DNA of 64,000 nucleotides from Clostridiaceae bacterium (lineage in GTDB: Bacteria; Bacillota; Clostridia; Lachnospirales; Lachnospiraceae). Shown here piece by piece: positions 4,654-21,722 of this stretch (the stretch's first letter is position 1; each line of letters starts with the position of its first letter). The stretch is from positions 1 through 64,000 of the forward strand of contig CAJSZV010000020.1 in assembly GCA_910574345.1 (NCBI GenBank), read 5' to 3'. The notes under the pieces are model-generated. The model was given only the letters and a program-made list of their open reading frames with translations, ran no database searches and had not been told where the DNA came from. Both the position numbers and the translations under genes were made by a program.

Positions 4654-5292
4654 TTGAAAAATAAGAGAGAAATTATCGGCCTCTTTTTGATTTGTGCGCT
4701 TATGGTTTCACTTGGGCTGGCATTTAATCCGGAGGAAGATCAGAGATATTTGCCTTTTCTGGTAGTTATGGCCTTTGTAACGCTGATGTTCTTTCTTGTG
4801 AAGATTGGCCAGTCCGATTTGAAAAGGCATCATAAAACACTTTTCTTTTTCTTTGCTTCACTGGCCGAGATGCTGTGGCTTGGATGGGTTGGCATAACAT
4901 TAAATGGGTGGTTTACCCTGGGCTTTATGGGGGTAGTCTGTGTCACATGGTTTTTAGTCAATCTCGTCTATGTTTATTTGCACCAACGGCGAGTAGTATC
5001 CCGGTGGAATATAGCCTATACAGCATGGAAGTCCGGGGGCAGCGCAGAGAATTATCTGAAAGAGATGGAACAGTGTGAGATAGAGATAAAAAACGATACA
5101 GGCATCATGCTTGTATACGGTGGCATTCCCTTAAATGATTATATTTCAGTTCATAAAATTTATCTGCTGAAAGAAATGGAAAGGAATCAGGAATGTCTTG
5201 CTCTGCTAAAAAATATCATGCCCAAAATTAAAAATCCGGAAGTGCAGAAGGCTCTTTCGGAAATAGAAACGGAGATTACAAAAAGGCTATAA
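4654..5292 (+). CDS. Membrane protein with four TM segments, function unknown
   Basis: A 212-residue protein with hydrophobic segments at about 7-24, 33-50, 62-83 and 87-110, followed by a soluble helical C-terminal part (about 120-212) that resembles a short TPR-like helical tail. The start is TTG at 4654, preceded by a GAGGTGGG SD-like sequence. It is the first of about 20 co-directional small genes; position and neighbours suggest a membrane immunity-type or accessory protein, but no family is recognised. The next gene starts 33 nt later. Confidence 0.75.
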   Translation: MKNKREIIGLFLICALMVSLGLAFNPEEDQRYLPFLVVMAFVTLMFFLVKIGQSDLKRHHKTLFFFFASLAEMLWLGWVGITLNGWFTLGFMGVVCVTWFLVNLVYVYLHQRRVVSRWNIAYTAWKSGGSAENYLKEMEQCEIEIKNDTGIMLVYGGIPLNDYISVHKIYLLKEMERNQECLALLKNIMPKIKNPEVQKALSEIETEITKRL

Positions 5293-5324
5293 GCTATTGA
5301 AAATACAAATGTGAGGCTACAAAC

Positions 5325-6002
5325 ATGAAAAAATGTACGATAGGACTGTTTTCAAAAATTATTGCATTTCTGGTCTTTGCGGGTTTTTTTGTTCCATTGA
5401 TGGGCATTTCTTTTTATTTTGCGTTCCTCTATCCACAGACACCACATGAGGAACGGCTGATTTTTCTGGCCGGGATATTCATGTGCGGCGGTCTTGTGGC
5501 CTTTGCCATTTACCGCACGTTTTATCTGGGGCTTATCTGGGCGGAATATGATATGGAAAAGGTAATCTTCCATTATTCCCGCAAAGAAGAATACAGGTTC
5601 CAGTGGGAAGAAATACCGGGGAGCCAGGTGCAGGTTGAGCGGGCAGGTGGTGGATATGTTTTCTATATCCAGGGGAATGGGCGGCAGAGAAAGATTCCTC
5701 TGAACCGTCTTTCAAAAGGCTATAAAGATTTTGAAAAAACACTGGAGCTGGCAGGAGTGCTGCATCGGATCGGCGTAAAGACAATGGAAGAATTTAGGAG
5801 GGATGCAGAACGGGTATTTGAACAGTTCCAAATGTATCGTGAGGCTCACCCAGGTTCCACTCCACCAAAGCCGGAAGGAAACTGTGTGATCTGTCCGGAC
5901 TGTCAGGGAAAAGGGCTGCATCTTAAAAAACTACCGCTGCTGAAGGTGGATGTGGGAAAGGTCTGTAAGACTTGCGGCGGCTCTGGTTATCTGCCGAAAT
6001 AA
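5325..6002 (+). CDS. Two-TM protein with PH-like core and DnaJ-like zinc-binding tail
   Basis: A 225-residue protein with two TM segments (about 9-33 and 43-65), then a beta-rich PH-like section (about 70-160) and a helical stretch. The C-terminus has two cysteine pairs, CPDC at 190-193 and CKTC at 214-217, each followed by a Gly-rich turn (CPDCQGKG and CKTCGGSG). That is the repeat pattern of the DnaJ zinc domain, here with two units rather than four. This tail is predicted to face the cytoplasm. The combination is unusual and no function can be assigned. It belongs to the cargo cluster of small unknown and immunity-like genes. Confidence 0.75.
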   Translation: MKKCTIGLFSKIIAFLVFAGFFVPLMGISFYFAFLYPQTPHEERLIFLAGIFMCGGLVAFAIYRTFYLGLIWAEYDMEKVIFHYSRKEEYRFQWEEIPGSQVQVERAGGGYVFYIQGNGRQRKIPLNRLSKGYKDFEKTLELAGVLHRIGVKTMEEFRRDAERVFEQFQMYREAHPGSTPPKPEGNCVICPDCQGKGLHLKKLPLLKVDVGKVCKTCGGSGYLPK

Positions 6003-6037
6003 TAACATGCTGTGAATATATCATGATGGAGGAAATA

Positions 6038-7069
6038 GTGTATCACTGGTGTGATAATTTTGAAAAACTTATGACAAAGTTTAAGCGGCGATGTGGAATG
6101 GTTTTTTCTCTGTTCTTTTGTGTGTTGCTCTGCGGCTGTCAGGTTCTGTTTCCGGAAGAGCATACAGAGTTAATTGTGGACGGGAAATATAGACCTTTCA
6201 ATGTTCCAAGGATGACGATGGAAAAGTTGATGGAGCTGGTGGAGGCGGAGGATGTTGATTACATTTATGAGGTGTTCTCTCCAGCTGTTAGGGAAAACAC
6301 AGAAGGGCTTTATGAGCAAATTCAGGAATTTATTCGCTTTGTAGAGGAAAATGTAACCGCTTGGGATTTTTCTTCGGGGAGTGGAACCATAGATCGCAAG
6401 AGCGGTGTTACGTTAGCAAAACAAACCAATTTATATACGTTTGAAACAAGCAGTGGAATTTACAGATGTGATATTTCAGATGTGGTAAATAATACAACCC
6501 AAGAGGACACGATAGGTTTTTCAAATATAATGATTTTTCCCGAAGAGCTGTCCAAAGAATATGCGCCCAAGAAGCCAGCAGGCGTTTATATCGTATACCG
6601 GGTGGAGGATATACCGCCGAATGCCTCGGCTGAACCGTTTTCTCTGGAAATATTGATGCAGTTCACCGCCGAAGGAAACTCGGATGATGTTTATGAGTTG
6701 TTTTCCCTAAATGCAAAGAAAAATGCGAAAGAGTTGAAGGGAAAAACATTAGAATTGATGGATTTTTTGAATGAGCAGGTTATTTCTTGGGAGCCGTACA
6801 CATGGACAAAGAACATAGAAATTGTAAATGGAGCTAAAGTTACAACACAGGAAATGTTCTTCTATCTGCACACAAACAGTGAGATGTATCGCTGTGATAT
6901 TCGTGAAGTTTTGGAAAATAGAAGTCAAGAGACCGATACCGGATTCTCCAGCATTTCGATTTTTCCGGCACTGTACCCTGGTGAAAAGCCGGAATACGAA
7001 GACGAGGTTTATAAAGGGTATTGCACCTGGGGTCGGGAGAATATGGGCATTTCTATAGTGTACCAGTAG
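6038..7069 (+). CDS. Lipoprotein with tandem DUF5104-like domains
   Basis: About 343 residues. A lipoprotein signal (VFSLFFCVLLCGC) is followed by two homologous halves. Both contain the same order: an IYEVFSP or VYELFSL element, a helical FIRFVEE or LMDFLNE element, the motif YRCDI, and GFSNIMIFP or GFSSISIFP. This is the layout of DUF5104 domains found near polymorphic-toxin loci, and it is duplicated in one chain. I chose GTG at 6038 because GGAGGA lies at 6028-6033; ATG at 6071 would also leave a lipoprotein signal but lacks an SD. An in-frame extension to 5972 would overlap the previous gene. It is predicted to be anchored outside the membrane, where it could neutralise an incoming toxin or modify the envelope. 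Confidence 0.65.
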   Translation: MYHWCDNFEKLMTKFKRRCGMVFSLFFCVLLCGCQVLFPEEHTELIVDGKYRPFNVPRMTMEKLMELVEAEDVDYIYEVFSPAVRENTEGLYEQIQEFIRFVEENVTAWDFSSGSGTIDRKSGVTLAKQTNLYTFETSSGIYRCDISDVVNNTTQEDTIGFSNIMIFPEELSKEYAPKKPAGVYIVYRVEDIPPNASAEPFSLEILMQFTAEGNSDDVYELFSLNAKKNAKELKGKTLELMDFLNEQVISWEPYTWTKNIEIVNGAKVTTQEMFFYLHTNSEMYRCDIREVLENRSQETDTGFSSISIFPALYPGEKPEYEDEVYKGYCTWGRENMGISIVYQ

Positions 7070-7097
7070 GAGAACCAAGTCAACTAAGGAGATTCGT

Positions 7098-7613
7098 ATG
7101 GGATTGTTTGACAGATTAAAAAAGAAAGACGAAACAAAGGATGATTTTCTACTGTTTGATAATTACCCCTTTAAGCTCGCCGTGATACAGCAGCTCATGT
7201 ATGAGCAGGAAGTTTTGGAAAACAAGTATAAGGGTGGAGATCGGTACTTTGAAATATACACGGATGCGGCTGAGGTTTCGGACGAAGAATCCATAAATCG
7301 TTTGAAATCATATATCGAGCAGGGAAATAACTTTTTTAAGAAATTAAAAATTCCTTGCTCTCTGGCAGATAAGGTAACGAAACTTTATGTTGGTGAGGAA
7401 CTGGATGTATATTACCATATCAATCCACAGTGGCTTGATTTTGATACATATTTTGAGGATGGAAAGGACTTTGACATTACAGATATAAGCGAAAGGGAAA
7501 TTCGGCAGTTTCCGAACCTTGCTTCAATCACATTCAATATGTATCATGCTCCCTCAGAGGAATTGGTTAAGAAAATAATGGGCTGGGGAATTGAAGTGCA
7601 TCTTCCAAATTAA
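7098..7613 (+). CDS. DUF6892-like protein
   Basis: A 171-residue soluble protein with a basic N-terminus (MGLFDRLKKK). The C-terminal half reads IPCSLADKVTKLYV...DVYYHINPQWLDFD...FPNLASITF, which fits the DUF6892-type pattern (hydrophobic strand, I-x-P-x-W, acidic run, FPNL). Members occur in immunity-rich gene clusters. SD AAGGAG lies before ATG 7098, 28 nt after the lipoprotein gene. Assignment is by motif memory; the binding partner is unknown. Confidence 0.6.
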   Translation: MGLFDRLKKKDETKDDFLLFDNYPFKLAVIQQLMYEQEVLENKYKGGDRYFEIYTDAAEVSDEESINRLKSYIEQGNNFFKKLKIPCSLADKVTKLYVGEELDVYYHINPQWLDFDTYFEDGKDFDITDISEREIRQFPNLASITFNMYHAPSEELVKKIMGWGIEVHLPN

Positions 7614-7669: not shown

Positions 7670-8434
7670 ATGGAAAAAGATGAGACATACAGGCAAAGAT
7701 CATTTTTTCAGACAGGAATGCCGCTATTTGTGGTTGCATTGTTTTTTCTGATTGCGGCTTTGTGCTTTTGCCTTAAAAGAGGTACGCTTTTATTGGCAGT
7801 AGTTTTGCTTGTAATTGGGCTCCTGTTCCTGATGCTGGGAGCAGGAAGAGTAAAAAAGGAGACAAAAAATATCCTGCGGTTTGTTCAGGAAAGCTCCGTT
7901 TTTTATCACAGATGCTATCCGCCTTTGAGAGTAACTGATATTCTGGACTGTTTAAAGAAGGAAGGTTTTGAAGTGGCGGAATATCCTTTTGGCAATTATT
8001 ATTGTCATCGGAACATCGGCCAGAAATTCGGATGTCATTTCTTTATAGCAAATAATGACACACCGGATTGTCCGGAAGCAGAAAGTTATTCGGAGTTATT
8101 CATTCGGATTGTCTGTGAATCAGGTATGTCACTTGGCAGCCAGTATCTGCTGGATATGGAGTATGGAGCCAGACTGGAACAGAAATCGCCTGAATATATC
8201 CAGGCGGTGCGGGAAGGTTTTATGCATAATAAACAGGGGGTTCCATTTGGATTTCGACTTGCCTATGACACTCAGGGCGATATTTTGTATTGTGCGGAGG
8301 CGATTGTCCGTATCATATGGCATAAAAGTGACCCACTTGCAATCTATGTCAGTGAACTGCTGAAAAAGCTGTTTTTTGAGCAGGACAGGCGGCAGGATGT
8401 AATCAAAGAGGAAAATAAGGGATGGCCGATATGA
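7670..8434 (+). CDS. Two-TM protein of unknown function
   Basis: A 254-residue protein with hydrophobic segments at about 17-34 and 40-56, then a soluble domain of about 190 residues containing several Cys/His (FYHRCYPP, NYYCHRN, FGCHFF). No family recognised. ATG 7670 follows an AGGTGAAAGGAATG region. Its end overlaps the next gene (starts 8422) by 13 nt, implying translational coupling with the PH-like membrane protein downstream. Confidence 0.7.
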   Translation: MEKDETYRQRSFFQTGMPLFVVALFFLIAALCFCLKRGTLLLAVVLLVIGLLFLMLGAGRVKKETKNILRFVQESSVFYHRCYPPLRVTDILDCLKKEGFEVAEYPFGNYYCHRNIGQKFGCHFFIANNDTPDCPEAESYSELFIRIVCESGMSLGSQYLLDMEYGARLEQKSPEYIQAVREGFMHNKQGVPFGFRLAYDTQGDILYCAEAIVRIIWHKSDPLAIYVSELLKKLFFEQDRRQDVIKEENKGWPI

Positions 8435-9711
8435 GAAACGAAAAAGTGGAATCCACGAATGAAATCAGCCCTGAGCTGCAGGGAAGTGTCCTGCGAGGAA
8501 TTTTAGGAAGTATCGCGGGAATGTTTGTCTGCATTATGGCTATGCTGTTATGCGGGCTGTTCCAGATAGAAAAATCCGGTATGATGCTCCAGCTTTTTGC
8601 AGGACTGGTGATCGGGTGGTTTTATCGTCTGTTTCATGGACGGCGTTCTAAAATGGTGGCCTATGTCACTGTAGGTATATGTACCGTACTGGCCAGTGCC
8701 CTTTGGGTAGTGTTACTGGCACTGTTACCCGCTATTGGCTCCCATGTTCATTTAACCGTAGCGGACTGGGGTAGATTGTGGAGCATGATTTGGGAGCTGT
8801 TGCTTTTATGTGTCGGTTTGGGGTTGATTGGCTTTTTCGTTACCAGAAGAAGTCTGCTGGCTTATGCAGATTGGAAAAGAGCCCCTTGGCATATCGCATA
8901 TGCAGGAGGCAATGGGGCATTATACAACCTGCTCCCGGAAAAACTTCCTGCTATAAATCCGCCGACGCACTTTGCCGTATATAGCCGCTTTACACCGGGA
9001 ACACATATTATCGTGGAAGGCAGCAGTTTCCGGTGGAGAAGACGGTTCCGTAAAGACCTTGTATTTTCTGTCCATGACATTACCGGTGTGGTTCTAGGGC
9101 CAGGGAATGGCTGTAATGTACTCTATGACAGGAACTATCAGGTACTGGCTAAATTTGCAGGCAGCATGGAACACGCAGATTTGCTACTCCTATGGCTGCT
9201 CCAATGGAACATACCCATAGATAGGGCTCCTGCTGAATGGCGTTCCCCGGTTGAGAGCAGAGCTGAACCGGAAGCAGAGGAATCTTCTGTTCTTCAGCGG
9301 CAATTCATTCTCCGCCTAAAACGCTCTACCCGGATTGGATTTGCAGGGATTGGATGGTTTCTTTTACTGATTGGACTGGCTCTTTTACTGGTGATTGACT
9401 TTTCTACGTTGAGTATGGTAGAACGGTCAGCTATCATTATCGTCACGCTGGCCGCAATGGGGATGAGTATTGTCTATTTACGAATGGGAAAGGTAAGCGG
9501 GGTGGAAGTAGACGGGGAACAGATGCGGGTGGTTTCCCGGTTCGGACGGACTACAGAGTTTTCAGTAAGGGAAGTGTCCTCTGTTTCCAGAAGTATGGGC
9601 TGGATTGTTTTGTATGACAGAGAGTTTAAGACATTGGCAAAAATTGATTCCTATCTGGAAAACCTTGATAGGCTAAAAGAGTATCTGGCGTTTTATGGGA
9701 TAAAGTGGTGA
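8422..9711 (+). CDS. Multi-TM protein with two PH-like repeats
   Basis: A 429-residue membrane protein. The N-terminal part has about four TM segments (roughly 28-50, 55-70, 78-100 and 120-140), followed by a soluble domain, two further TM segments (about 310-335 and 338-355) and a C-terminal domain. The two soluble domains share the pattern FSVHDITGVV...NVLYDRNYQVLAKF and FSVREVSSVS...IVLYDREFKTLAKI, so they are internal homologues resembling bacterial PH-like domains. Coupled by overlap to the preceding gene. A smaller PH-like membrane protein recurs at 21246. Role unknown; envelope protection is an inference from context. Confidence 0.75.
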   Translation: MADMRNEKVESTNEISPELQGSVLRGILGSIAGMFVCIMAMLLCGLFQIEKSGMMLQLFAGLVIGWFYRLFHGRRSKMVAYVTVGICTVLASALWVVLLALLPAIGSHVHLTVADWGRLWSMIWELLLLCVGLGLIGFFVTRRSLLAYADWKRAPWHIAYAGGNGALYNLLPEKLPAINPPTHFAVYSRFTPGTHIIVEGSSFRWRRRFRKDLVFSVHDITGVVLGPGNGCNVLYDRNYQVLAKFAGSMEHADLLLLWLLQWNIPIDRAPAEWRSPVESRAEPEAEESSVLQRQFILRLKRSTRIGFAGIGWFLLLIGLALLLVIDFSTLSMVERSAIIIVTLAAMGMSIVYLRMGKVSGVEVDGEQMRVVSRFGRTTEFSVREVSSVSRSMGWIVLYDREFKTLAKIDSYLENLDRLKEYLAFYGIKW

Positions 9712-9747
9712 TTAGAGATTTAGAAAACCATTTTCAACGGAGGAAAA

Positions 9748-10218
9748 ATGTACAATCGGTATCATGACATCAAAAAATTCATAACCGATCCGGAAAAGCT
9801 GCAAATTGTAAACAGTTCGGAAGTCTATATTTCGAGTGAAGAAAATTATGATATTGTGGTGGATTTGGCGGGGCATATAGCAGATTTTGAAGGATTGAAG
9901 CCGTTCATTGTTCTTGTGGCTCAAAGCCTTTGCGAACTTGATAATACCGCTCAAAAATTTGACAGACTATATAGCAAGAGCAGCCAATTCCCTTATGATG
10001 TGGAGATTGTTTTTATTGATACTCCATATGTGACCCTTGAATATTGGGGAAGAGAAGAAAATACACAGTTTAAAGTTGTTTTTGAGTACAATAAAGATAA
10101 GTTCATGCTCAAAAGTTTTGGAACAATACTGGATGTGCCAACAGACTGGGAGCAGGCTGTTTTTAAAGAAAACAAGCAGACCCAAAAGAAAAGTCTTTTT
10201 CACAGGTTGATACATTAG
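9748..10218 (+). CDS. Small soluble protein, putative immunity protein
   Basis: A 156-residue acidic protein rich in aromatic residues (MYNRYHDIKKF..., DVEIVFIDTPYVTLEYWG, FKVVFEYN). Alternating beta strands and an uncharged fold are typical of cytosolic immunity proteins of polymorphic toxins, but I do not recognise the family. An SD (ACGGAGG) lies directly upstream of ATG 9748. From here to about 14.6 kb the sequence becomes visibly AT-rich. Confidence 0.7.
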   Translation: MYNRYHDIKKFITDPEKLQIVNSSEVYISSEENYDIVVDLAGHIADFEGLKPFIVLVAQSLCELDNTAQKFDRLYSKSSQFPYDVEIVFIDTPYVTLEYWGREENTQFKVVFEYNKDKFMLKSFGTILDVPTDWEQAVFKENKQTQKKSLFHRLIH

Positions 10219-10271: not shown

Positions 10272-10691
10272 ATGTATTCCTATCTTGAGATAGTAAATGA
10301 TTTATTAAAGGAATTTCCGGAAATAAGCAAAAATTATGAGGAAGAAATAACTTGGATCAAGGATACTTTTCAAAATCAGGAAACGGGAGGTCAGACAATC
10401 TATTTTGACCGCTGTTTTTGTGATTACATTGGCCGCCTGCTGATGAATAAGTGTCAAGATAACATTAAAATAGAAAAGGTATTTGCTTTTTTAGAGAATA
10501 TGGCTGTAAGTGAAGATCAGGAAGTCAGAAATCTGTTACAAGTAACAGTTTTAGAATATCTTCGCAGTTGGTATCTATTACAGAACAAATCTGAGAAGCT
10601 CATGCTGCCGGAAACAAAGAAATTATTTGATTGTGTAAAGAGTTATCTGCAGGAACCGGCACAAGATGCGCTTCCCTATTTTTCTACATAA
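10272..10691 (+). CDS. DUF7674-like immunity-type protein
   Basis: A 139-residue all-helical protein. The segment VFAFLENMAVSEDQEVRNLL followed by QVTVLEYL is the hallmark pattern of DUF7674-type proteins often seen in immunity arrays. ATG 10272 follows a GGGGTAG SD-like site. It is 53 nt after the previous gene. Function inferred from context only. Confidence 0.6.
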   Translation: MYSYLEIVNDLLKEFPEISKNYEEEITWIKDTFQNQETGGQTIYFDRCFCDYIGRLLMNKCQDNIKIEKVFAFLENMAVSEDQEVRNLLQVTVLEYLRSWYLLQNKSEKLMLPETKKLFDCVKSYLQEPAQDALPYFST

Positions 10692-10738: not shown

Positions 10739-10993
10739 GTGGAAGATCAATATACTCGTTGGCAAACAAGAAGGAGAAGTCTTCCGGATCAAAAGAAAAG
10801 TGGAAACGGCTGGATACTTGGAAAGTCATGTTCAACATTGCATTTAACATATCAAATATATAATCTTGCCGAGGAAGCAGAACAACAAAAAGCTATTCTC
10901 CGGCTGATTATTCCTCAAAAATGCAAATTAAGTCCAAAGTTAAAAGATTTTTTGAAAGAACATAAATATGTAAGGATAATTAGGAGGGATTAA
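10739..10993 (+). pseudogene. Small ORF, probable frameshifted gene
   Basis: A GTG-initiated frame of 84 codons with an AAAGG SD about 11 nt upstream. Its first third is poor protein sequence (WQTRRRSLPDQKK), whereas the +1 frame from about 10740 reads as a plausible domain (INILVGKQEGEVFRIKRK ... GYLESHVQHCI) and stops at a TAA near 10843. From about 10845 the GTG frame looks natural (IYNLAEEAEQQKAILRLIIP). The simplest view is one ancestral gene of about 85 codons broken by a 1-nt indel near 10835. A real 84-residue protein cannot be excluded. Confidence 0.4.
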
Positions 10994-10998: not shown

Positions 10999-11445
10999 AT
11001 GGGATTATATTTATGTATATTTGATCAAGAGGAAGAAGATATTTGTGGAGTTGAAGTCGGACTATATAGTTATTTTGAAGAATTTAGAAAGTTAATCTCT
11101 AAATATATAAATAAAGGCTTTGTTTCTAAAGTTTTTAAGCGTAAGAGCAAATTTTCATTACCAATGACAACTTTATTAAACCATTCCGATTGTGATGGGA
11201 GTTGGAGTGTTGATGAATGCGCCCAGTTAAAATTGGAATTACAAGAAATCAAACAGGTATTTACTAATGAACCACCTGATTTATCAATAGTTGAATTAAA
11301 ACAAGATATTTTTAAGTTTTATGGGATAAAACCTGAAAATTTATTTGAATGTTTTATTGATTCGGATTGTGAGTTCTTAATCGACAGGTTGATTGGCCTA
11401 TGCGATCTGGCAATTCAAATGAATAGGCCAATAATGTTTCAATAA
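10999..11445 (+). CDS. Imm70-like immunity protein
   Basis: A 148-residue protein beginning MGLYLCIFDQEEEDICGVEVG, with YFEEFR, then LLNHSDCDGSWSVDECAQLK and a helical C-terminus. The start and the HSDCDGxW motif match what I know of Imm70-type immunity proteins. SD AGGAGG lies just before ATG 10999, 5 nt after the preceding disrupted ORF. No matching toxin gene is near. Predicted to be cytosolic and to bind and block one toxin family. Confidence 0.6.
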   Translation: MGLYLCIFDQEEEDICGVEVGLYSYFEEFRKLISKYINKGFVSKVFKRKSKFSLPMTTLLNHSDCDGSWSVDECAQLKLELQEIKQVFTNEPPDLSIVELKQDIFKFYGIKPENLFECFIDSDCEFLIDRLIGLCDLAIQMNRPIMFQ

Positions 11446-11575: not shown

Positions 11576-12166
11576 ATGGGAATTTTTGAAAAATTCATGA
11601 AGAAGAAAGAAGTAAAAAGACCCAAATTGATTGTTTTTGAGAAAGAAAACATTGATAATGATTATGCGAATTTTGAATTGAAGATAAAACCCCGAATTTC
11701 CATTGATGAGGGTTTTTCACAAGAAGCATATCAGCTTCTTGCAGGAAGGCGTAAGGAAATGCTGGAGCAAATTGAAGAAATCATTTTCAGTAATTATCTT
11801 GATGAAGATAGCGAAGACTTGGCATCGGAGATTGACAGTTTTCCAGATATCCGCTATTTCACGGGAAATTATTATGTTGTGTATGAAAGCTATGGTTTCA
11901 ATTATCGGGATAGAAATTACCGTTCTTATCATATTAAAGACGGCCAATATAGAAATGTAAGATATAAAGGAAATGAACGAAAAGAATCTTATCTCCCGTT
12001 GGACAGTGATGAAATCATAAGGTATTATAAAATCTTTATCCAGGTTGGGTTGACCGGAAATGAAAACGGACAGGAAGAAGATTATATGAGCCTTGATCTG
12101 GTTGCGGAGATTGCTTCACCAGATGATAAGATTGAGTTTGAAGTTTTATCGCATGGTGTAATGTAA
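11576..12166 (+). CDS. Hypothetical soluble protein
   Basis: A 196-residue protein starting MGIFEKFMKKKEVKRPK. This short basic start resembles that of the DUF6892-like protein at 7098 (MGLFDRLKKK), a common leader among these cluster proteins. The remainder is acidic and aromatic-rich (YYVVYESYGFNYRDRNY). No family recognised; immunity-like by context. SD AAAGGAG precedes ATG 11576. The 130 nt before it contain no gene. Confidence 0.7.
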   Translation: MGIFEKFMKKKEVKRPKLIVFEKENIDNDYANFELKIKPRISIDEGFSQEAYQLLAGRRKEMLEQIEEIIFSNYLDEDSEDLASEIDSFPDIRYFTGNYYVVYESYGFNYRDRNYRSYHIKDGQYRNVRYKGNERKESYLPLDSDEIIRYYKIFIQVGLTGNENGQEEDYMSLDLVAEIASPDDKIEFEVLSHGVM

Positions 12167-12224: not shown

Positions 12225-12602
12225 ATGTTACATTGGATTGCGATTATACTTGGAATTATCTTTACACTTTTTCAACTTTTTTATGCCTTTATAGTAATAT
12301 GCAGCCTGATAGAAAATACGGGGTATAAAATCCTTAGCGTTGTTTTTGGCATCTGCCATGCAATTTCACCAGTATTGTTCGTATTCTTTGGTTATCAATG
12401 CCTTTTGCGTAAGATAGCACAATATGGTGCATTAAGGGCAGGTATCGGTATCGTTGTTTGCTTAGTCATATATTTTTTGGTTGTTTCAATATGGAATAGA
12501 ATTGTATTGGGATATACTCCCGAAACATGGAAAATAAGTCTGTTAACGATAGCACAAGTGATTGTTTCGGCTATATTTATTTACGGCTTTTTGTATTTTT
12601 AG
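12225..12602 (+). CDS. Small four-TM membrane protein
   Basis: A 125-residue, almost wholly hydrophobic protein with TM segments at about 3-25, 34-54, 70-90 and 103-123. SD AAGGAGGAG precedes ATG 12225. Small polytopic proteins of this kind can be immunity proteins against membrane-acting toxins; nothing more specific can be read. Confidence 0.7.
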   Translation: MLHWIAIILGIIFTLFQLFYAFIVICSLIENTGYKILSVVFGICHAISPVLFVFFGYQCLLRKIAQYGALRAGIGIVVCLVIYFLVVSIWNRIVLGYTPETWKISLLTIAQVIVSAIFIYGFLYF

Positions 12603-13564: not shown

Positions 13565-13674
13565 ATTCGGACTGATTTCTGTCTATTGAGAAAATTGTGG
13601 AGGATTACCCGTTAAAAACGATTATCGTTGCACTAACAAATCGGAAGTTGAAAAGAAAAAAAGAGGTGAAGTGT

Positions 13675-14354: not shown

Positions 14355-14615
14355 ATGTCACATAGCAAACATACAAAGCGGGGTTATTCTTTATATATCG
14401 AAAATTGGAACCGATCTGCTAAAAAGTACATAAATATTTGTTGTATATGTGGACATAAAGGCTATAGTCCTGTAATAGAACAGGGTGATTTTTGCAGTAC
14501 TCTTGAAAATAAAGCGATTTACAGAGAACTATCAAAAACACTTTGTAAACTGGAATTAGATGAGTTAGGGCGTTGTAAAGACTGTGCAAGGGTGCAAGAT
14601 AAACATATGAGTTGA
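14355..14615 (+). CDS. Small cysteine-rich, zinc-ribbon-like protein
   Basis: An 86-residue protein with CCICG at about 29-33 and CKDC near residue 75, which could form one zinc site. Starts MSHSKHTKRGYSLYIENWNRS. ATG 14355 follows AAGGGGGAAAAG. Family not recognised. It marks the end of the AT-rich part of the cargo cluster. Confidence 0.65.
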   Translation: MSHSKHTKRGYSLYIENWNRSAKKYINICCICGHKGYSPVIEQGDFCSTLENKAIYRELSKTLCKLELDELGRCKDCARVQDKHMS

Positions 14616-14676
14616 TAAAGCAAATTTGACGAAGAGGAATTTTTATGGAAAAAGAAAGGATTGCAAGGAGGAACCT

Positions 14677-15450
14677 ATGAAATACACTCTCGATACAGAT
14701 TTTTCATCACTGAACGGGCCAAAGGCAGCCAACTGGATCATGGGCTTTCAGGATATGGCTGAGGATGCTTTTGCGGACAGCAGCAGCCATTCACGGCTTT
14801 TGGGGAATCTTCTGATTCTGGAACCATATTTACATACGATTCGCCAGGGGCTGGCAGACAGGTGCAGGACGGTTCCGGCCATTCTTCAGGAGGCTCTTGA
14901 CATACTTTGGGATTATCTGGAAGGCAGGAAAGCACCGTCCGATTTTCAGGATTTTGCCAATAATCTCTATGCTGCTACCCTCAATTATAATGTAGGGGAA
15001 GAAATAACCGATGCACAGGCGGAATTTTATGAAAAACATATAGATATTCCCTGGGGAAGCACCTGTGAATGGCAGATACTCACATGGCTTTCTGTTCTTT
15101 TGATGGAAGTGGTTGCAATCAGCGGTGGGAGGCTGGATTTTGAAGAATATGAGGAATATGAACAGGACGTGGATTTTGCGGAAATGGAGGAAATGCTGAA
15201 TATGCTGGCGGATGCCTTTATTGATCTTACCAATACGCCGCTCCCATCCAATAAAGCATCAGACGTAATGAACGCACAGGAACAGGTTTACCAGACACCG
15301 CTGTTCCGGCAGTTTATAGAACGCATTCAAAATGGGCTGAAAGCTGCGCTGTCTGCTACACCGGAGCAGTATCCGGCTCTCCAGGAAGAATATCGTCAGT
15401 ATGCGATCCTCCCGGAAGAATATGCTGCAAAACTGTTAGGTTGTTTGTGA
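14677..15450 (+). CDS. Soluble helical protein, putative immunity or hypothetical protein
   Basis: A 257-residue, predominantly helical acidic protein (MKYTLDTDFSSLNGPKAANW...), with a very acidic stretch around FEEYEEYEQDVDFAEMEEML. AAGGAGG at 14664-14670 fixes the start at ATG 14677, 17 codons inside the longest frame. No domain recognised. From here to 21 kb the sequence is visibly richer in G+C than the preceding 5 kb, suggesting that the cluster was assembled from different sources. Confidence 0.65.
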   Translation: MKYTLDTDFSSLNGPKAANWIMGFQDMAEDAFADSSSHSRLLGNLLILEPYLHTIRQGLADRCRTVPAILQEALDILWDYLEGRKAPSDFQDFANNLYAATLNYNVGEEITDAQAEFYEKHIDIPWGSTCEWQILTWLSVLLMEVVAISGGRLDFEEYEEYEQDVDFAEMEEMLNMLADAFIDLTNTPLPSNKASDVMNAQEQVYQTPLFRQFIERIQNGLKAALSATPEQYPALQEEYRQYAILPEEYAAKLLGCL

Positions 15451-15481
15451 TCTTTAAAAATATATGAGGGAGAGTTGGACT

Positions 15482-16405
15482 ATGTTTTTGAAAAAAGAAA
15501 AACCTGAATTTGAAATACGCCCATTATACTCCATCCGTGAAGAGTTGGAATTGATAAAGGAGTTCTGCTGGCAGCCTAAACTGGCCGCAGGCAAGATTTA
15601 CACGGAGGAAGAAATAGATGCAGTGGAGCAGCGGCTGAACTATAAGCTGCCACAACCTCTAAGAGAGCTTTATTTGGTGCTGGGCGACTATGTATGTGAA
15701 AAGAAAGACACCTATTTCTGCCGCCCGGAGGAACTCCACTGGAGCGGACAGTACCTACTGGTGGAGGCCATGGAAAGAACCCGTCGGGGATGTGGGATCT
15801 ACCGAAAAGACCCCTATGCGTCGGTTTATAGCTGGGAGCGGAACGGGGTCAACATTTACGGCGAAGTGCAGGATGAAAAGCCGAAATCAGAGGTGATAAG
15901 AAAAAGTGCACGTGATCAGTATTTCTCGAAACAATGCTTTTATTGGGATATTGTTATTATCCAACATGTGCTGGATAAGGTAATGAGGGATTGGTGGGAG
16001 CTGCATCAGACCCGGATGACAGAGGAACTGTCTCCTTTTTATATCGGCTGCTCTCTGCCGAGGAAACTGGACGAACTGCAGAAAGTCCGTCAAAGAATGG
16101 AGGAGTGGCTGGTTCCCATCTCGTCAAAAGCAGAGCTTTTAAGGGTAGAGATGTCCGGAAAGAATGCAGGGCCAGAGAATTATGTGGTTTATGCTTATAC
16201 GAATCCGGAGAAGACCCTGCTGGTTCTATCTTTCAGCGCCCAGCAGAAATATGGGCTGATCACGAAGGAGCCGGTTCCCTACTCCTTTGCAGAACGGGTG
16301 GAAGAAAAAACCGGGATGCTGTTCTGGTCATGGAATGGGCAGGGCAGGAAACGGATGGAGGAAAAAGAAAAGGAAATGCGGGCAGCGGGCCTGTTTAAGA
16401 GGTGA
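15482..16405 (+). CDS. SMI1/KNR4 (SUKH) domain protein
   Basis: A 307-residue cytosolic protein. Residues about 35-65 (YTEEEIDAVEQRLNYKLPQP followed by LRELYLVLGDY) are the classic SUKH entry motif; SUKH proteins are among the most common immunity proteins of contact-dependent toxin systems and bind toxin domains directly. The start at ATG 15482 has GAGGGA about 10 nt upstream; an in-frame ATG at 15464 is less well placed. Its end abuts the SD of the second SUKH gene (start 16411), so the two are coupled. Confidence 0.8.
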   Translation: MFLKKEKPEFEIRPLYSIREELELIKEFCWQPKLAAGKIYTEEEIDAVEQRLNYKLPQPLRELYLVLGDYVCEKKDTYFCRPEELHWSGQYLLVEAMERTRRGCGIYRKDPYASVYSWERNGVNIYGEVQDEKPKSEVIRKSARDQYFSKQCFYWDIVIIQHVLDKVMRDWWELHQTRMTEELSPFYIGCSLPRKLDELQKVRQRMEEWLVPISSKAELLRVEMSGKNAGPENYVVYAYTNPEKTLLVLSFSAQQKYGLITKEPVPYSFAERVEEKTGMLFWSWNGQGRKRMEEKEKEMRAAGLFKR

Positions 16406-16410
16406 AAACT

Positions 16411-17292
16411 ATGTATGCAATCGAAAAGGAACTGAAAATACTCCGGCAATTTATCAGCCCGAAGCATATAGAAGGCTTGAAAAAGTGGAAATGTTATTCA
16501 GAGGATGAAATTCTGGCGGCAGAGAAGCGGCTTCATGTAAAGCTTCCATCTCCTATCCGGGATATTTACCGGCACATGGCAGACCTGTTAGTCACCAGCG
16601 GTTATCTGCGGCCATTGGAGCTTCTTCATTGGGAGGGAAGATATCTGGGATTCTTTCTTGCCCCCGGAGAAGGAGATATCATCGGGATACGAAAGGGCAA
16701 AACTTCCGGTGGTCTATACGCATGGGAAGAAAATGATCCAAAAGACATGGCCTGGGAATATGAGGATGAACTGGCAGATGCCTGTGAGGAGGGGGATGAG
16801 GTGAGAAAGCAGAAGGCTGTGGCAGCTTACCAGAAATACTGGAAAAAGCGGAATATTCCTTTGATTCACGCTCCCCTGAACATTCATAAGCTGGAACATG
16901 AACCCAGGTTTAACCATGCCCCGGACGCATATGGGCTGTTCCTAGTGATTCATGCCATCCGTGAATGGGAGGAGATGTCATGGCGTGAGCACGCCGATGA
17001 TCGAACCTGCCTGTTCAGTGATTTTTTCCCCGCAAAGTTTTCGATGGAGTATTTCCAAAGGATAGCTGATCGGATTAAGGATGATTTTAAACCCCTTTCA
17101 GACCATCCGGAACTGACCAGTCTGGGCGATTTTCCTTTGCAGATGGCATATGTCCACAAAAATCAGGAAGCCCTGCTGGTTCTGGGGCAGGAGCCCGTCT
17201 GTTTTATGGTGCTGACAAAGACGGATGCAAAGGGTGACCTCCTTGAAAAGCTTCAGGAACAGACTGGCCTGGCTTTTCATGTGGGATTTTAG
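16411..17292 (+). CDS. SMI1/KNR4 (SUKH) domain protein, tandem paralogue
   Basis: A 293-residue protein. YSEDEILAAEKRLHVKLPSP then IRDIYRHMADLL is the SUKH motif, and the overall layout (LRPLELLHWEGRYLGF against the EELHWSGQYLLV of its neighbour) shows that it is a paralogue of the protein at 15482. Start chosen at ATG 16411 with AGAGGTGA 6 nt upstream; GTG 16402 is also in frame and overlaps the previous stop. Paralogous tandem immunity genes are typical of arrays that track toxin variants. Confidence 0.8.
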   Translation: MYAIEKELKILRQFISPKHIEGLKKWKCYSEDEILAAEKRLHVKLPSPIRDIYRHMADLLVTSGYLRPLELLHWEGRYLGFFLAPGEGDIIGIRKGKTSGGLYAWEENDPKDMAWEYEDELADACEEGDEVRKQKAVAAYQKYWKKRNIPLIHAPLNIHKLEHEPRFNHAPDAYGLFLVIHAIREWEEMSWREHADDRTCLFSDFFPAKFSMEYFQRIADRIKDDFKPLSDHPELTSLGDFPLQMAYVHKNQEALLVLGQEPVCFMVLTKTDAKGDLLEKLQEQTGLAFHVGF

Positions 17293-17341
17293 AAAAAGGC
17301 CGGCCGGACAGAAAATAAGAGAGCCGGTGAGGAAACAGATT

Positions 17342-18568
17342 ATGAGAAAAAAGAACAGAACAGGAAAACGGCTGCGGCTGACACCTCTTATATTGGGAGG
17401 CTATGCTGCGTTTCTGGGGGTTGGTCTGATAGTGATTGGACTTGCTGAAATGAAGGAAGGGATCGGTATTGTCCGGCTACTGATTGGGCTTGGCATGGCG
17501 GGCTTTGGCTTGTTGGGAATATGGGATGGAGTGCGTGATCTGGTGGGGCCAGATAAAAAATCGGAGCAGTCGCCGGCCAGCCAGTTTATCCTTACAGATA
17601 CATCTGGAAACAGAACCTCCAATGTTACAGTGGAGATTTTACAAAAACAGTTGGAAAGCCTGATGGAAAGTGATAAAGGGGGCGTTTTCAAACTCCAGAT
17701 CCTGCCGCCTTTTCCCATACAGGAGATAGGGAATATAAGCCAGATTTTCTGTATATTCCATGAGGTCTTTCGGTTGACGCTATTTTTGGAAGAATCTAAA
17801 GGCGGATATGAATCGTACCATAAAAGCGCAGAGTTTGACGAGGCGAAGAACTGGCTTGAAAAACTCCTGACTGGCAGTGCTGATCTTTCGGGGTGGAAAA
17901 AAATAGAGAATGGATATGACGATGAAGATGAGAGCAGCGAGGAAGAGGACACCGAATGGGAGGAAAGCAGCGCTTGCCCAGGCGAAGCTGAGGATACCGG
18001 AGACGAGAACCGCCCGGAAGATACAAATGAGACAGCGGAGGCAGTTACTGGTTTTGACAAACCAGATGCTTTGATAGATACAGAAGAAGCCACGGCAGGG
18101 AAGAGCGAAACGGATACCCGGCAGACTGAGGAAAACATAAAATCTTTCTGGCAGCAGCTTCAAAGAGAACAGAAAGGCCAAATGCGGAACTGGCGTCAGC
18201 TTCTGGTGATTTTTGGAGAGAGCTGGCATGATGAACACACATTTTTCTCCGCCAGAGATGTGGAACTGGCCATTGACGGCATCTATGAAGGAACATACAC
18301 AAAGGTATTCCTGGAATGGGGAACGCAGGCACTTGATTTCTTCCCCGGCGTTCAAAATGACTTGATGGTGATTTGGTGTACCAATAACACAGGAAAAGGG
18401 GATACCAGGTTTCTGGCGAAAGAAGGAACCGTGACGCAGGTGAAATTCTGGCTGGTTAATTATTTGAAGTCCGGTGTTTTTGAAGAAATGAGCGGTTGGG
18501 CTGATGTTACTGCCCAGATAGAAAAAGCAAATAGAAAGGGCAAAAAGAAACATGGGAAAGTATTTTAG
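17342..18568 (+). CDS. Membrane-anchored protein with acidic linker
   Basis: A 408-residue protein. Two TM segments lie near the N-terminus (about 14-34 and 40-60), followed by a soluble domain (about 75-190), a long acidic low-complexity linker (about 195-275, rich in E, D, S and T) and a C-terminal soluble domain ending in a basic tail (ANRKGKKKHGKVF). ATG 17342 follows GTGAGGAA; the longer frame from 17225 overlaps the SUKH gene and is rejected. Its 3' end overlaps the next gene by 17 nt. Unrecognised; the two soluble halves joined by a flexible acidic linker may be separate binding modules. Confidence 0.7.
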   Translation: MRKKNRTGKRLRLTPLILGGYAAFLGVGLIVIGLAEMKEGIGIVRLLIGLGMAGFGLLGIWDGVRDLVGPDKKSEQSPASQFILTDTSGNRTSNVTVEILQKQLESLMESDKGGVFKLQILPPFPIQEIGNISQIFCIFHEVFRLTLFLEESKGGYESYHKSAEFDEAKNWLEKLLTGSADLSGWKKIENGYDDEDESSEEEDTEWEESSACPGEAEDTGDENRPEDTNETAEAVTGFDKPDALIDTEEATAGKSETDTRQTEENIKSFWQQLQREQKGQMRNWRQLLVIFGESWHDEHTFFSARDVELAIDGIYEGTYTKVFLEWGTQALDFFPGVQNDLMVIWCTNNTGKGDTRFLAKEGTVTQVKFWLVNYLKSGVFEEMSGWADVTAQIEKANRKGKKKHGKVF

Positions 18569-19787
18569 CGATGTGGTGGATAAGGCCATTGAAGATCTCT
18601 ATTATTGTTGTGATAATGACAAGGCAAAAGCGGCGGCGGACGCATTATTGTCTGCGACAAAGGACGGGGATGGGGACGCCTGCTATTTCCTCTCCCGCTG
18701 TTTTTCCGGCCCCTGTTACAGCTGGGAATACCACCCCTTTGAAGAAAATGAGGCGGCGGCCTATGCCATGCTCCATCAGGCTATCTCCTTGGGCAGCGCC
18801 GCTGCGGTTCTGGGAGCGCTGCGTATGGATTTGCTGACACCGGAGTTTAAGGAGATTATGCCCTTTGACAGTATAAAAGAAGCATGGGATGTAATCTATG
18901 AAAAAGCCGAGAACGGATGCGCATTCTGCCAGTACATGATTGGGAACGCCTATTATTATCTGGACATCATAGAGATTGAAGATCATAAGGAAAGTGACTT
19001 CGCAAATAAGGGAGCCTGGAATGCATGGAAACAGCAGCAGATAAAACAGTGCCTGCCCTGGTTTGAAAAGTCATTTTCCGGAGGTATGATTCTGGCGGGG
19101 CGGAATTACTGCCATTATTATCAGTATGGCCGGGGAGAATACATTCCGCCGGAGCCAGAAAAGGAAGTTTCTATCACACGCCAGGGTGCAGAATGGGGCT
19201 ACCCGGAGTGTATGTATGCCTACGCTCATCACCTTATCTATAAGGAGAATAACCACAAAGAAGCTCTACCTTGGGCACTGAAAGCGGCAGAAGCCGGGCA
19301 CCTGTGGAGTTGGCATATTATAGGGGATATTTATTGGGACGGTACAGCAGTGGAGCGTAATCTGCCCTATGCGCTCCAGTGCTACGAAAAAACAGCCAGC
19401 TATGGCAATGATAGTTATGCCTGCCGCCAACTGGGGCGTCTGTATTTCCACGGCTGGGGTACAGCTGTGGACTATGCACGGGCGGTTCAATGGCTGGAGA
19501 GAAATCAGGAGCCGGAATATGCCCTGAATGATCTGCTGGGGATCTGTTACCTGCTGGGATACGGTTGCCGGCAAGACCCGGCAAGAGGAAAAGCGTTATT
19601 GGAGAAAAGCGAAAAATCCCGCTATAAAAGCTATGGTCTGGGAATGATGTATGCAGAGGGAATCGGTGTACGGGAGGATATAGAAAAAGGTGTTGAGTAT
19701 CTGAAAGAGGCAGGAAATTACGGGCCGGCAATCGAGGCTCTGAAACATTACAAGAAAAGCCTGTTTGGGGTCTGGCGGAGAAAATAA
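18552..19787 (+). CDS. Sel1-repeat (TPR-like) protein
   Basis: A 411-residue soluble protein built of Sel1-like repeats, each with the A-x-x-x-L-G-x-x-Y pattern: for example FCQYMIGNAYYY, WSWHIIGDIYWDG, YACRQLGRLYFHGWG and KSYGLGMMYAEGIGV. Sel1 repeats are scaffolds for protein-protein contacts. Start ATG 18552 lies inside the end of the previous gene (17-nt overlap), so the pair is probably translated in a coupled way. No signal peptide or TM. In this setting it may act as an immunity or adaptor protein. Confidence 0.8.
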   Translation: MGKYFSDVVDKAIEDLYYCCDNDKAKAAADALLSATKDGDGDACYFLSRCFSGPCYSWEYHPFEENEAAAYAMLHQAISLGSAAAVLGALRMDLLTPEFKEIMPFDSIKEAWDVIYEKAENGCAFCQYMIGNAYYYLDIIEIEDHKESDFANKGAWNAWKQQQIKQCLPWFEKSFSGGMILAGRNYCHYYQYGRGEYIPPEPEKEVSITRQGAEWGYPECMYAYAHHLIYKENNHKEALPWALKAAEAGHLWSWHIIGDIYWDGTAVERNLPYALQCYEKTASYGNDSYACRQLGRLYFHGWGTAVDYARAVQWLERNQEPEYALNDLLGICYLLGYGCRQDPARGKALLEKSEKSRYKSYGLGMMYAEGIGVREDIEKGVEYLKEAGNYGPAIEALKHYKKSLFGVWRRK

Positions 19788-19816
19788 GAACATTTAGAAA
19801 AGGAGGCAGATTGTCC

Positions 19817-20473
19817 ATGAGCTATTCCTTAATGATTGCGCCTTTCGATTTTGCTAACCATAATAAAATTGCAGCGCAACAGTTTTTTGATAATTACGCA
19901 TTTTTTGAGCTGACACCCAAACGGGCTAAGGAATATTTTTTGTGGTTTAAGAATGAAATCCCTAACCGGATCACTATGCTCTGGGAATATATGAAGGAGG
20001 AACGCCCGGAAAGCCAGCCCTTTGACTATTCTCCGGAATCGTTGATTCCGTTATGGGATTGGTATGAAACAAAAATCAAACAGGTTCCCCAGACGAGGAA
20101 AGAAATTGAGTATAATGTTTCAAGATTTCCGAAGTGGATGGAGGAAAATGTCCGAAAAATAACCATGAAATATACAGATGAAACACTATCTCTTGCGTTG
20201 GATATTTCCATATATTATGGAGAAACGATCATTAAAAATTATCCCAATATGTATTGGGGGCATTTTACAAGGCCAAAGCGTGAACTCTTTGCCAATAAAC
20301 CTGTGATACTGAAGTTAAATAACAAGAAGAAGTATGTTGCAGCCAGTCAGGTAGTATTTGTATGTATGCTAAAATCCAGTGAAAGACCTGACAAGAATCG
20401 GTTGTATGACCTGTACCGCTTTAGTGAAGATGAGTTTGATCCAATAAAGCCAAGTTATTGGGATAGCTGGTAA
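19817..20473 (+). CDS. Hypothetical protein, immunity-like
   Basis: A 218-residue soluble protein (MSYSLMIAPFDFANHNKIAAQ) whose C-terminal half (LALDISIYYGETIIKNYPN, YWGHFTRPKRE) resembles uncharacterised proteins encoded beside polymorphic-toxin loci. AGGAGG at 19801-19806 serves either TTG 19811 (4 nt) or ATG 19817 (10 nt); I prefer the ATG. No catalytic motif seen. Confidence 0.65.
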   Translation: MSYSLMIAPFDFANHNKIAAQQFFDNYAFFELTPKRAKEYFLWFKNEIPNRITMLWEYMKEERPESQPFDYSPESLIPLWDWYETKIKQVPQTRKEIEYNVSRFPKWMEENVRKITMKYTDETLSLALDISIYYGETIIKNYPNMYWGHFTRPKRELFANKPVILKLNNKKKYVAASQVVFVCMLKSSERPDKNRLYDLYRFSEDEFDPIKPSYWDSW

Positions 20474-20502
20474 CCATAATCTGTTAAAGGAGACTATATT
20501 TT

Positions 20503-21186
20503 ATGACAACAGCAAAAAAGTATTTGGGGATATTGAGAGAACGTGAACCGCAATTATGGAAAGAGCCATTCAAAGAATCCGGCTTTACAGAGAAAGATTT
20601 ATCAGATATTGAAAAAGGGCTTGGATATAAGCTGCCAGCGCCATACCGTGAATTTTTGTTAAGTTATGAAATGCCGAAAGATATTACTGTACTTGTTTCC
20701 TTTTGCGGCGATTCCTTTGCGTGTTCATGGAGTGAAACCTTTTCCCGTGAGAAAAATGGCTATATCTCCCGGCCTGAATTTGATATTGGCCCAACGGTTG
20801 AGTTTGAGTGGCACAATATTCAAGGACACAGCGGGGCAGAGTTTTTGAAGAATCTCCAGCAGGAACAGAAAACGCAGGATTACTGCCCCTGCTTTTTGGA
20901 GGCAGGGTTTATCAGGGTCGGAAATGTATATGGGTATTTGGTGTATCTGGATTTGGTAAGCGGCGGCATCGTCACAATACATGAAGAGGGCGTATATGAC
21001 ATGATGGGTGCCGGGGTAGATTGGGCCAGCAGATCAGAAGTAAGGAAATATATGGAAACACGAGAGCTTTATATCTGTAAGGACTTTAATGATTTTCTTC
21101 GTTTTGCTTGCACTGGTGACTTTCTTGATGAGAATGAAGCAAGATTCCCTACACAGGAGGAACTGGAGCAGGATTATTCTTATTAA
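20503..21186 (+). CDS. SMI1/KNR4 (SUKH) domain protein
   Basis: A 227-residue protein. FTEKDLSDIEKGLGYKLPAP followed by YREFLLSYEMP (about residues 26-55) is the SUKH signature, and the later GYLVYLDLVSGGIVTIHEEG matches the second conserved block of the family. Third SUKH gene of the cluster, with AAAGGAG before ATG 20503. Predicted to be a cytosolic immunity protein; the cognate toxin is not in the window. Confidence 0.8.
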   Translation: MTTAKKYLGILREREPQLWKEPFKESGFTEKDLSDIEKGLGYKLPAPYREFLLSYEMPKDITVLVSFCGDSFACSWSETFSREKNGYISRPEFDIGPTVEFEWHNIQGHSGAEFLKNLQQEQKTQDYCPCFLEAGFIRVGNVYGYLVYLDLVSGGIVTIHEEGVYDMMGAGVDWASRSEVRKYMETRELYICKDFNDFLRFACTGDFLDENEARFPTQEELEQDYSY

Positions 21187-21245
21187 CTCTTATCTTAATA
21201 AGGATTGTTTTAAGATAGAACAAACAGATAAAAGGAGATTGTATT

Positions 21246-21722
21246 ATGATAAGTGGAATAATTTTTATACTAATTATTGTAGGTGGGATAGCGCTGATCG
21301 TTTGGTATTTGAAATCATTTTATGCCGAACGTGAAAACCGGGCAAAAAAGGCGGAGGAACACCGGAGCAAACATGGTGGAGAATGTATTCTGGAATGGAG
21401 TGGAAGTCTTTCAAGCGGTGCGCCGGATGCAGAATTTGGAAAGCTGATTGTAGAGGTTCCAAAGAAACGTGGAGGCGGTGCAGCATGTTTTTATGAAAAA
21501 GGACTGGTACTGGAAAAAAAGCGTCTGCCCTATTCAGAAATTAAAGATGTTCTGTTTGTAGCTGCCACATCAAATAAGAAATACACTTTGAAACAAGCTG
21601 CAAGGGATATGGGTGTTTTATGGATATACCCCAAAAAAGGAGCTACGATAGGGCTGAGGGAAATGAGCTATCAGTTTGATAATGAAATAATGGAGAAAAT
21701 CAAACAAGGACTTGGCTTTTAA
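21246..21722 (+). CDS. One-TM protein with PH-like domain
   Basis: A 158-residue protein with an N-terminal TM (about 4-24), a charged linker and a beta-rich PH-like domain (FGKLIVEVPKKRGGG ... GLVLEKKRLPYSEIKDVLFV) ending in an amphipathic helix (EIMEKIKQGLGF). AAAGGAG lies before ATG 21246. Similar in general plan to the PH-like modules of the protein at 8422. Last gene of the cargo cluster. At about 21835-21875 a short sequence again encodes KLAVEVPKN, which may be a fragment of a duplicated copy. Confidence 0.7.
   Translation: MISGIIFILIIVGGIALIVWYLKSFYAERENRAKKAEEHRSKHGGECILEWSGSLSSGAPDAEFGKLIVEVPKKRGGGAACFYEKGLVLEKKRLPYSEIKDVLFVAATSNKKYTLKQAARDMGVLWIYPKKGATIGLREMSYQFDNEIMEKIKQGLGF

Follow-up and report, generated by a model that had tools for sequence, protein, structure and literature searches.

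The DNA analyzed here (the window, 64,000 nt) is the start of contig C20 in a 5.6-Mb, 106-contig genome assembly of a Clostridiaceae bacterium, probably of gut origin; the contig begins at window base 1. Between positions 4654 and 21722, the window carries an island of 24 open reading frames (ORFs) of 84 to 447 amino acids (aa), discussed below as a candidate repertoire of immunity genes on a mobile element. All 24 ORFs lie on the positive strand, with intergenic gaps of at most 130 nt and overlaps of at most 68 nt by the starts of the ORF finder. An earlier reading of the letters alone (the sequence-only reading) had described a co-directional string between conjugation genes and a mobilization/recombinase end, and this description largely held. 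Labels beginning with F denote protein families, L loci, G relative genomes, and C contigs.

Gene content of the island

Families were named from Pfam profiles at the family cutoffs, and from NCBIfam profiles at an E value of 0.001. SUKH-1 was detected over the Pfam cutoff in gene 18 (F01; 15464..16405; 28.1 bits) and gene 23 (F05; 20503..21186; 27.7 bits). Gene 19 (F00; 16402..17292) reached 19.7 bits against a cutoff of 25.4, and its assignment to SUKH is supported because it is 25% identical to gene 18 (E 1.8e-15). Together with Imm70 in gene 10 (F06; 10999..11445; 35.8 bits), the island thus holds three SUKH genes, one of them below the cutoff, and one Imm70 gene, not all adjacent. Recognized immunity proteins are the products of only about 4 of the 24 genes. 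The SUKH genes are nonetheless concentrated: 7 of the 9 SUKH-1 matches of the whole genome fall in this island and a second one described below, which together make up about 1% of the genome length, more than expected by chance.

The profile search also placed DUF5104, DUF6892, and DUF7674 over their cutoffs, so the family names proposed in the sequence-only reading were accurate. Its count of seven immunity-type families was too high: the three SUKH genes and Imm70 are immunity families, whereas the three DUF families are not immunity-named. Among 250 family genomes, of which this genome is one, 6 carried DUF6892 and 9 carried DUF7674, this genome being among both. A DUF7674 copy in another genus (L121, on G013:C5), close to gene 8 in sequence (profile E 8.7e-86), adjoins a relaxase gene, a MobC gene, and a serine-recombinase-like frame; therefore, the DUF7674 gene too travels with mobilization genes.

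The string opens with gene 1 (N00; 4654..5292), by eye a membrane protein without a family over the cutoff, and gene 2 (F20; 5325..6002), which has a DnaJ-like zinc-binding C terminus below the cutoff. Gene 3 (F17; 5972..7069; DUF5104, 75.2 bits), of uncertain start codon, and gene 4 (7098..7613; DUF6892, 92.8 bits) are followed by gene 5 (F25; 7670..8434), again a membrane protein by eye, and gene 6 (F15; 8422..9711), neither with a family over the cutoff. Gene 7 (9748..10218) has no assigned family, and gene 8 (F21; 10272..10691) is the DUF7674 gene (56.9 bits). Between it and Imm70 lies an 84-aa ORF, gene 9 (F03; 10739..10993), possibly a derivative of a restriction endonuclease (REase) toxin tip. 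Gene 11 (F10; 11576..12166) has no assigned family; genes 12 (F22; 12225..12602) and 13 (F26; 12686..12967) encode membrane proteins by eye, and gene 14 (F11; 13067..13564) encodes a lipoprotein-like product. DUF4291 scored 200.9 bits in gene 15 (F18; 13597..14283). The Cys-rich gene 16 (F12; 14355..14615) has no family over the cutoff, and neither gene 17 (F04; 14626..15450) nor gene 20 (F02; 17225..18568) has a family. Sel1 repeats were found in gene 21 (F07; 18552..19787; 64.4 bits), gene 22 (F08; 19811..20473) has no assigned family, and gene 24 (F19; 21246..21722), without a family, closes the string.

NCBIfam matched three families, one protein each, apparently incidentally. The AlphaFold2 model of the gene 17 product was helical and uninformative (predicted local distance difference test score [pLDDT], 45), with no match in the PDB; PDB searches with Imm70, DUF4291, and the SUKH protein of gene 23 gave nothing convincing. 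No relative of SUKH gene 18 was found among the viral contigs or plasmids searched. Elsewhere in the gene pool, two loci (L020, 3107-4588; L027, 4242-5723) encode a 493-aa lipoprotein-like island protein (F41) of two similar halves, with no family over the cutoff.

Phage-defense islands are likewise variable cargo on mobile elements next to recombinases, and the string could be read as an antiphage or other defense island. One of the 24 proteins matched KwaB weakly (E 0.0074), and PADLOC detected nothing at E 0.001 among the 24. Since SUKH and Imm70 also point elsewhere, we regard this explanation as very improbable.

A shared leader upstream of gene 1

A leader at 4317-4602, on the positive strand, precedes gene 1. 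It comprises two promoter-like sites and an (AAGC)18 array, followed by two hairpins, of which the second is strong, resembles a terminator, and ends in a stretch of T residues. Candidate promoter P1 (4317..4345; TTGTAT-17-TATAAT, with TGC before the -10 hexamer) was read from the sequence; the P1 block was seen by eye in G545:C45, G556:C50, G556:C137, L023, and G562, and not in C6, the contig of the second island. Candidate promoter P2 (4384..4412; TTGACA-17-CATTCT, also with TGC before the -10 hexamer) was recognized by eye in the nine leaders whose sequence extends far enough, with a variable -10 hexamer, and is absent in G562. A generic promoter scan of the region gave no excess over shuffled sequences (47 versus 43.5), and the promoter reading therefore depends on the conservation between leaders. 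The tetranucleotide array (4414..4486; found with Tandem Repeats Finder) ranges from fewer than 2 to 18 copies across ten leaders, which suggests slippage. It is followed by a conserved segment (4487..4602) with the first hairpin and the intrinsic-terminator-like hairpin (4545-4591). The leader folds with an energy z score of -4.43, a value that none of 200 shuffles matched.

Within this genome, the leader was matched at island heads only. Its last 117 bases matched the genome twice at E 0.01, both times at the head of an island, and a covariance model built from ten leaders returned the same two matches only. Over 1.47 Mb from 82 sources, the model gave 11 hits, all at known leader sites and one of them duplicated. 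Further leader sites numbered nine, in 6 of 14 genomes with island pieces, plus one weaker site in 37 other relatives. Six of 12 leader sites head long arrays of the gene pool (the window, C6, G544, G545:C29, G555, and L023), the arrays of G544 and G545:C29 being near-identical. Other sites head different genes: the first gene is F15 at the G549 site and, by eye, at the G562 site, it is F34 in G556:C137, and the leader of G556:C50 heads a short string that includes a homologue of a C6 SUKH protein.

An Rfam search over 4100-22200 gave one match at chance level, outside the leader. The leader DNA had no match in the plasmids or phages searched; an exact 16-base leader pattern occurred in five viral contigs. 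We rejected the leader as a short peptide gene, its frame not being kept and stops coming early in L023 and G556:C50; searches with the putative peptide found nothing in plasmids or phages, and four viral contigs matched over 12-13 residues only.

The sister island, relatives, and carrier element

The second island of the same genome occupies C6 from about 53.2 to 84.3 kb. The order F01-F00-F02-F07-F08-F05-F19 is common to both islands, with extra genes between the last two in C6, and the seven cargo genes at 15464-21722 are 66-99% identical in amino acid sequence to their C6 copies. F15, F03, F06, and F22 are also shared, which brings the range for all shared genes to 66-100%; gene 12 (F22) and its C6 counterpart encode products with 100% identity. 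Further content of the C6 island comprises Imm42 (121 bits), DUF4132, part of DUF7677, and three more SUKH genes over the cutoff, one of which also encodes leucine-rich repeats. By reading of the translations, the island region comes after a tyrosyl-tRNA synthetase gene; a phage-type integrase lies about 0.5 kb past its end, and relatives of the window relaxase and MobC lie about 9 kb and 12 kb farther on. By eye, C6 also carries a uvrB-start-like frame at 85888-86223 (L010) and a full uvrB-like frame at 121263-123356 (L129), about 35 kb apart; the arrangement would fit integration of an element into or close to uvrB.

Pieces of the same gene pool, often reordered, are held by fifteen loci from the species-genome scan. 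The closest relatives of one island gene came from genomes labeled Lachnospiraceae, Clostridia, Clostridiaceae, Hungatella, or plain "bacterium," and several genomes with the closest island genes presumably belong to mouse-gut collections. Over 10.4 kb (13637-24083), mobilization genes included, L016 matches the window at 97% nucleotide identity; the leader-near 5' part is reordered, with identities of 68-87%. In the comparison of the window with C6, identity is 100% across 468 bp around F22, compared with 86% and 96% for the blocks on the two sides. The blocks therefore have separate histories. Across five leader-headed arrays we counted 59 families, 4 of which (F00, F01, F02, and F03) occur in all five.

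The testable genes are kept rather than decaying. Usable pairs were available for 20 of 24 families, and in each of these the ratio of nonsynonymous to synonymous substitution rates (dN/dS) was below 0.5 (range, 0.03 to 0.41), some of the ratios resting on one to three pairs. The set comprised 22 cargo families, the relaxase, and MobC, and excluded L017, a near copy of L016. Alignment blocks tended to end near gene boundaries, 151 of 208 ends lying within 40 nt of a start codon and 160 of 209 within 40 nt of a stop codon, compared with random means of 43.5 and 43.8. This test left out the L020/L027 pair and blocks under 150 bp, and its pairs are not independent; faster divergence between genes combined with selection against broken genes gives the same pattern, which is thus no proof of a cassette mechanism. 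Leader-distal genes were more widely shared (rho, 0.38; reached by 0 of 2,000 shuffles), a signal driven by one conserved block and reversed in L023 (-0.17).

The flanks indicate the kind of carrier. To the left are a 1,278-aa DUF3849/YodL/LPD16 accessory protein of a conjugative-type element (76..3912; Pfam) and a transposon-transfer assisting protein (TTRAP; 3827..4123; PF14203, E 1.1e-22), both on the positive strand. To the right, on the negative strand, are a relaxase of the MobA/VirD2 type (22156..23556) and a MobC/NikA-like mobilization protein (23505..23867), each 100% identical in amino acid sequence in L016 and L017. A helix-turn-helix (HTH) protein (DeoR/HTH_11; 24511..24840) and a large serine recombinase (25605..27263), which begins 3.9 kb from the last island gene, follow on the positive strand; all four were assigned by Pfam. 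The proposed Tn1549-like backbone stands as far as the TTRAP, the MobC, and the relaxase module are concerned. In the strict sense it is not supported: Tn1549 has a tyrosine integrase, whereas the window has a serine recombinase, and the scan of flanking proteins, which did not extend to the part of the element beyond the contig start, showed no transfer ATPase (VirB4/TraG type). With no transfer genes proper in the part scanned, the element can be called conjugative by inference, and we refer to it as ICE-like (ICE, integrative and conjugative element). Farther right, at 27653-63366, the window has apparent chemotaxis, two-component, sugar ABC transport, beta-galactosidase, and glycosyltransferase genes (by eye).

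Toxin partners, function, and comparison with known systems

The claim that toxin and LXG genes are lacking was upheld within the limits of the search. Pfam identified no full toxin among the 24 island proteins, and LXG had no match in this genome; the 84-aa ORF, with a weak match to Tox-REase-7, qualifies the statement. A local LXG profile found none in 36 island or flank loci (566 kb), with limited sensitivity, as it recovered only 9 of 14 held-out controls. Because LXG and Tox-REase-7 were the only toxins sought genome-wide, Rhs, WXG100, and other carriers falling outside the search, with no Tox-REase-7 found in this genome either, the term "orphan" holds with respect to LXG only.

Of nine copies of the 84-aa ORF (F03) in the first loci, eight stand directly 5' of an Imm70 frame, which has only 93 aa in L027; L023 lacks most of Imm70 and has an altered F03 end. 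F03 is under purifying selection (dN/dS, 0.15). Its sole Pfam lead is Tox-REase-7 (E 0.088); by eye, its second half keeps the core register of that domain, with the N-terminal part absent and not all motif residues retained. A profile comparison with Tox-REase-7 was not significant, and the predicted structure (pLDDT, 70) had no clear structural match. A toxin origin of F03 is no more than plausible.

Such an origin would suit a locus that was once a polymorphic toxin locus (LXG, Rhs, or similar) and lost its toxin and secretion genes while the downstream immunity genes were kept. Imm70 relatives lend this some weight. Strong ones were found in three other genomes, G113 (165 bits), G191, and G046; in G113:C200 (L085/L092), Imm70 lies directly behind a toxin-like gene with a nuclease-like tip, as judged by eye, which occurs in tandem and in broken frames at a place not among the LXG matches. 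In the 2012 survey by Zhang et al., Imm70 is listed with Tox-REase-10, and Tox-REase-7 is paired with other immunity families, not with Imm70 (PMC3482391). The latter pairing, the absence of LXG from the 36 loci, the purifying selection on all 20 testable families, and a gene order reshuffled between relatives, unlike the decay of one locus, make remains of a toxin locus quite improbable.

The interpretation toward which we lean is that the island is a heterogeneous polyimmunity locus carried as cargo by an ICE-like element, one of two such islands in the genome. Most likely, orphan immunity proteins form the core of a mobile set of genes that is kept under one leader and rebuilt by recombination. 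This reading is based on the SUKH and Imm70 genes over the cutoff, the concentration of SUKH in the islands, the additional Imm42 and SUKH genes of C6, the mosaic blocks, the gene order common to both islands, the dN/dS values, the leader matched in this genome only at the two island heads, the lack of LXG matches and of PADLOC matches at E 0.001, and the precedents in PMC3482391 and PMC12247911. For most of the genes, function is inferred from sequence. The string would be transcribed as one unit from the leader. SUKH, Imm70, and perhaps several unnamed proteins would bind and neutralize toxins from neighboring bacteria. Recombination would account for gain, loss, and exchange of genes between islands, with the island itself spreading together with the element. 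To judge from the terminator-like hairpin, expression may stay low until transcription reads through, with possible tuning by the AAGC repeats.

Several results weigh against a polyimmunity locus. LXG was present in 22 of 299 family genomes, with 53 matches listed. The surroundings of LXG genes were covered by 40 stretches (625 kb) from 19 of these 22 genomes, which took in 46 of the 53 listed matches wholly or partly; there, the 51 island families had no match at E 1e-3, and one weak SUKH-family match was seen at E 0.0064. The expected homologues beside LXG toxins were thus missing from these stretches. Since the control stretches (176 kb from 14 of 20 places) contained no island-family match either, the test is without contrast and shows only absence. 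The toxin-like gene before Imm70 was seen in one of the three genomes with strong relatives, with none within the 1.5-kb flank in G191 and G046. As for the leader, covariation was not above that of shuffles (127 of 500 reached the observed percentage paired), and the pairing is kept mainly by G-U changes, so its structure rests on folding energy and conservation.

The remaining contrary points also favor a different explanation, namely, general accessory cargo made up of surface, regulatory, and helper genes with a minority of immunity genes, accumulated at a tolerated insertion site behind a promoter. About 20 of the 24 genes carry no immunity name. For DUF6892 and DUF7674 elsewhere, 12 sites were fetched and 6 scanned; of the ten proteins, two carry the DUF domain. 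The other eight are neighbors, and none is a toxin: two have no family, and the rest are ordinary (an ABC-F-type ATPase, a nucleotidase-like protein, a cupin, a GNAT protein, a CxxCxxCC protein, and an adenylosuccinate synthetase). In addition, two leader sites do not head an immunity string. In G545:C45, the leader is followed first by an ORF that G549 also has, next by two ORFs of no known family, and then by HTH-cupin, PBP, and metallo-beta-lactamase genes, and in G545:C1 it directly precedes a large serine recombinase gene (L147, 18028-19641). Arguing against general cargo are the clustering of most SUKH matches of the genome in the islands and the recurrence of SUKH, Imm70, and Imm42 in the sister island and relatives. 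We consider this explanation possible, if doubtful.

A more elaborate proposal is that of a leader-anchored capture system. Here the leader, viewed as a promoter, hypervariable AAGC repeats, and a terminator-controlled RNA, would mark a site that gains immunity cassettes, each a ribosome-binding site plus an ORF. It would regulate them as a unit and switch the repertoire on when toxins disturb transcription or translation, and F03, in this scheme a toxin-derived mini-protein, would be part of the apparatus rather than debris. We think this unlikely, and we found no precedent for leader control of immunity genes in the open-access literature searched.

Knowledge of orphan immunity arrays is most advanced for Bacteroidales and their type VI secretion systems (T6SSs). 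If the island is a polyimmunity locus, toxin pressure among gut Lachnospiraceae-type Clostridia would be strong enough to select transferable immunity repertoires, and the island would offer a defined gene set and a single candidate control element for finding the attacking toxins.

The sequence-only reading had placed the island with the acquired interbacterial defense (AID) systems, as a Firmicute counterpart. Membership in AID was not supported: no island-family homologue was found beside genes of LXG, the effector type searched, and the host of AID and recombinase-associated AID (rAID) is Bacteroidales, while the genomes with the closest island genes are Clostridia. T6SSs are not expected in Clostridia.

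AID-1 and rAID resemble the island as mobile or recombinase-associated arrays of orphan immunity genes that include SUKH, and orphan immunity proteins of the SUKH type have conferred protection on Bacteroidales in experiments (PMC12247911). They differ in having T6SS cognate effectors and tested protection, whereas here no cognate effector was found near LXG genes. A gut review mentions AID with respect to Bacteroidales alone and polyimmunity loci in general terms (PMC8432619), and the example in PMC13288982 is likewise from Bacteroidales.

Within Firmicutes, strings of orphan esaG genes are known from Staphylococcus aureus strains without esaD, as are recombining esaG strings at type VII secretion system (T7SS) loci (PMC9484751). 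Like the island, the esaG, tsaI, and tipC strings at Firmicute T7SS loci are immunity strings reshaped by recombination; unlike it, they are mostly tandem paralogues of one family at a T7SS locus, whereas the island is heterogeneous and away from T7SS toxin genes. With Tn1549-like ICEs, the window shares the TTRAP, the DUF3849/YodL protein, MobC, and the relaxase; it differs in its serine recombinase and in having no resistance operon among the proteins scanned.

The closest likeness is to the heterogeneous polyimmunity loci described in 2012, which include Firmicutes, vary in content, lie next to recombinases in some cases, and have no toxin cassettes inside; about 13% of the organisms with such loci have more than one (PMC3482391). 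Common features are co-directional, unrelated immunity-type genes with small gaps, no full toxin gene, varying content, and a recombinase nearby. Since this work and PMC9484751 already report immunity strings in Firmicutes, an AID-like system in a Firmicute is less novel than had been stated. The present case differs from these loci in that only a minority of its genes are recognized immunity proteins, its carrier is ICE-like, and two islands with a common gene pool in one genome share a leader and a possibly toxin-derived 84-aa ORF. No Firmicute or other Gram-positive immunity island on a mobile element was found in the open-access literature searched. Within the reach of these searches, four features are new: the setting on an ICE-like element, the occurrence of the islands as a pair, the leader that they share, and the conserved mini-ORF.

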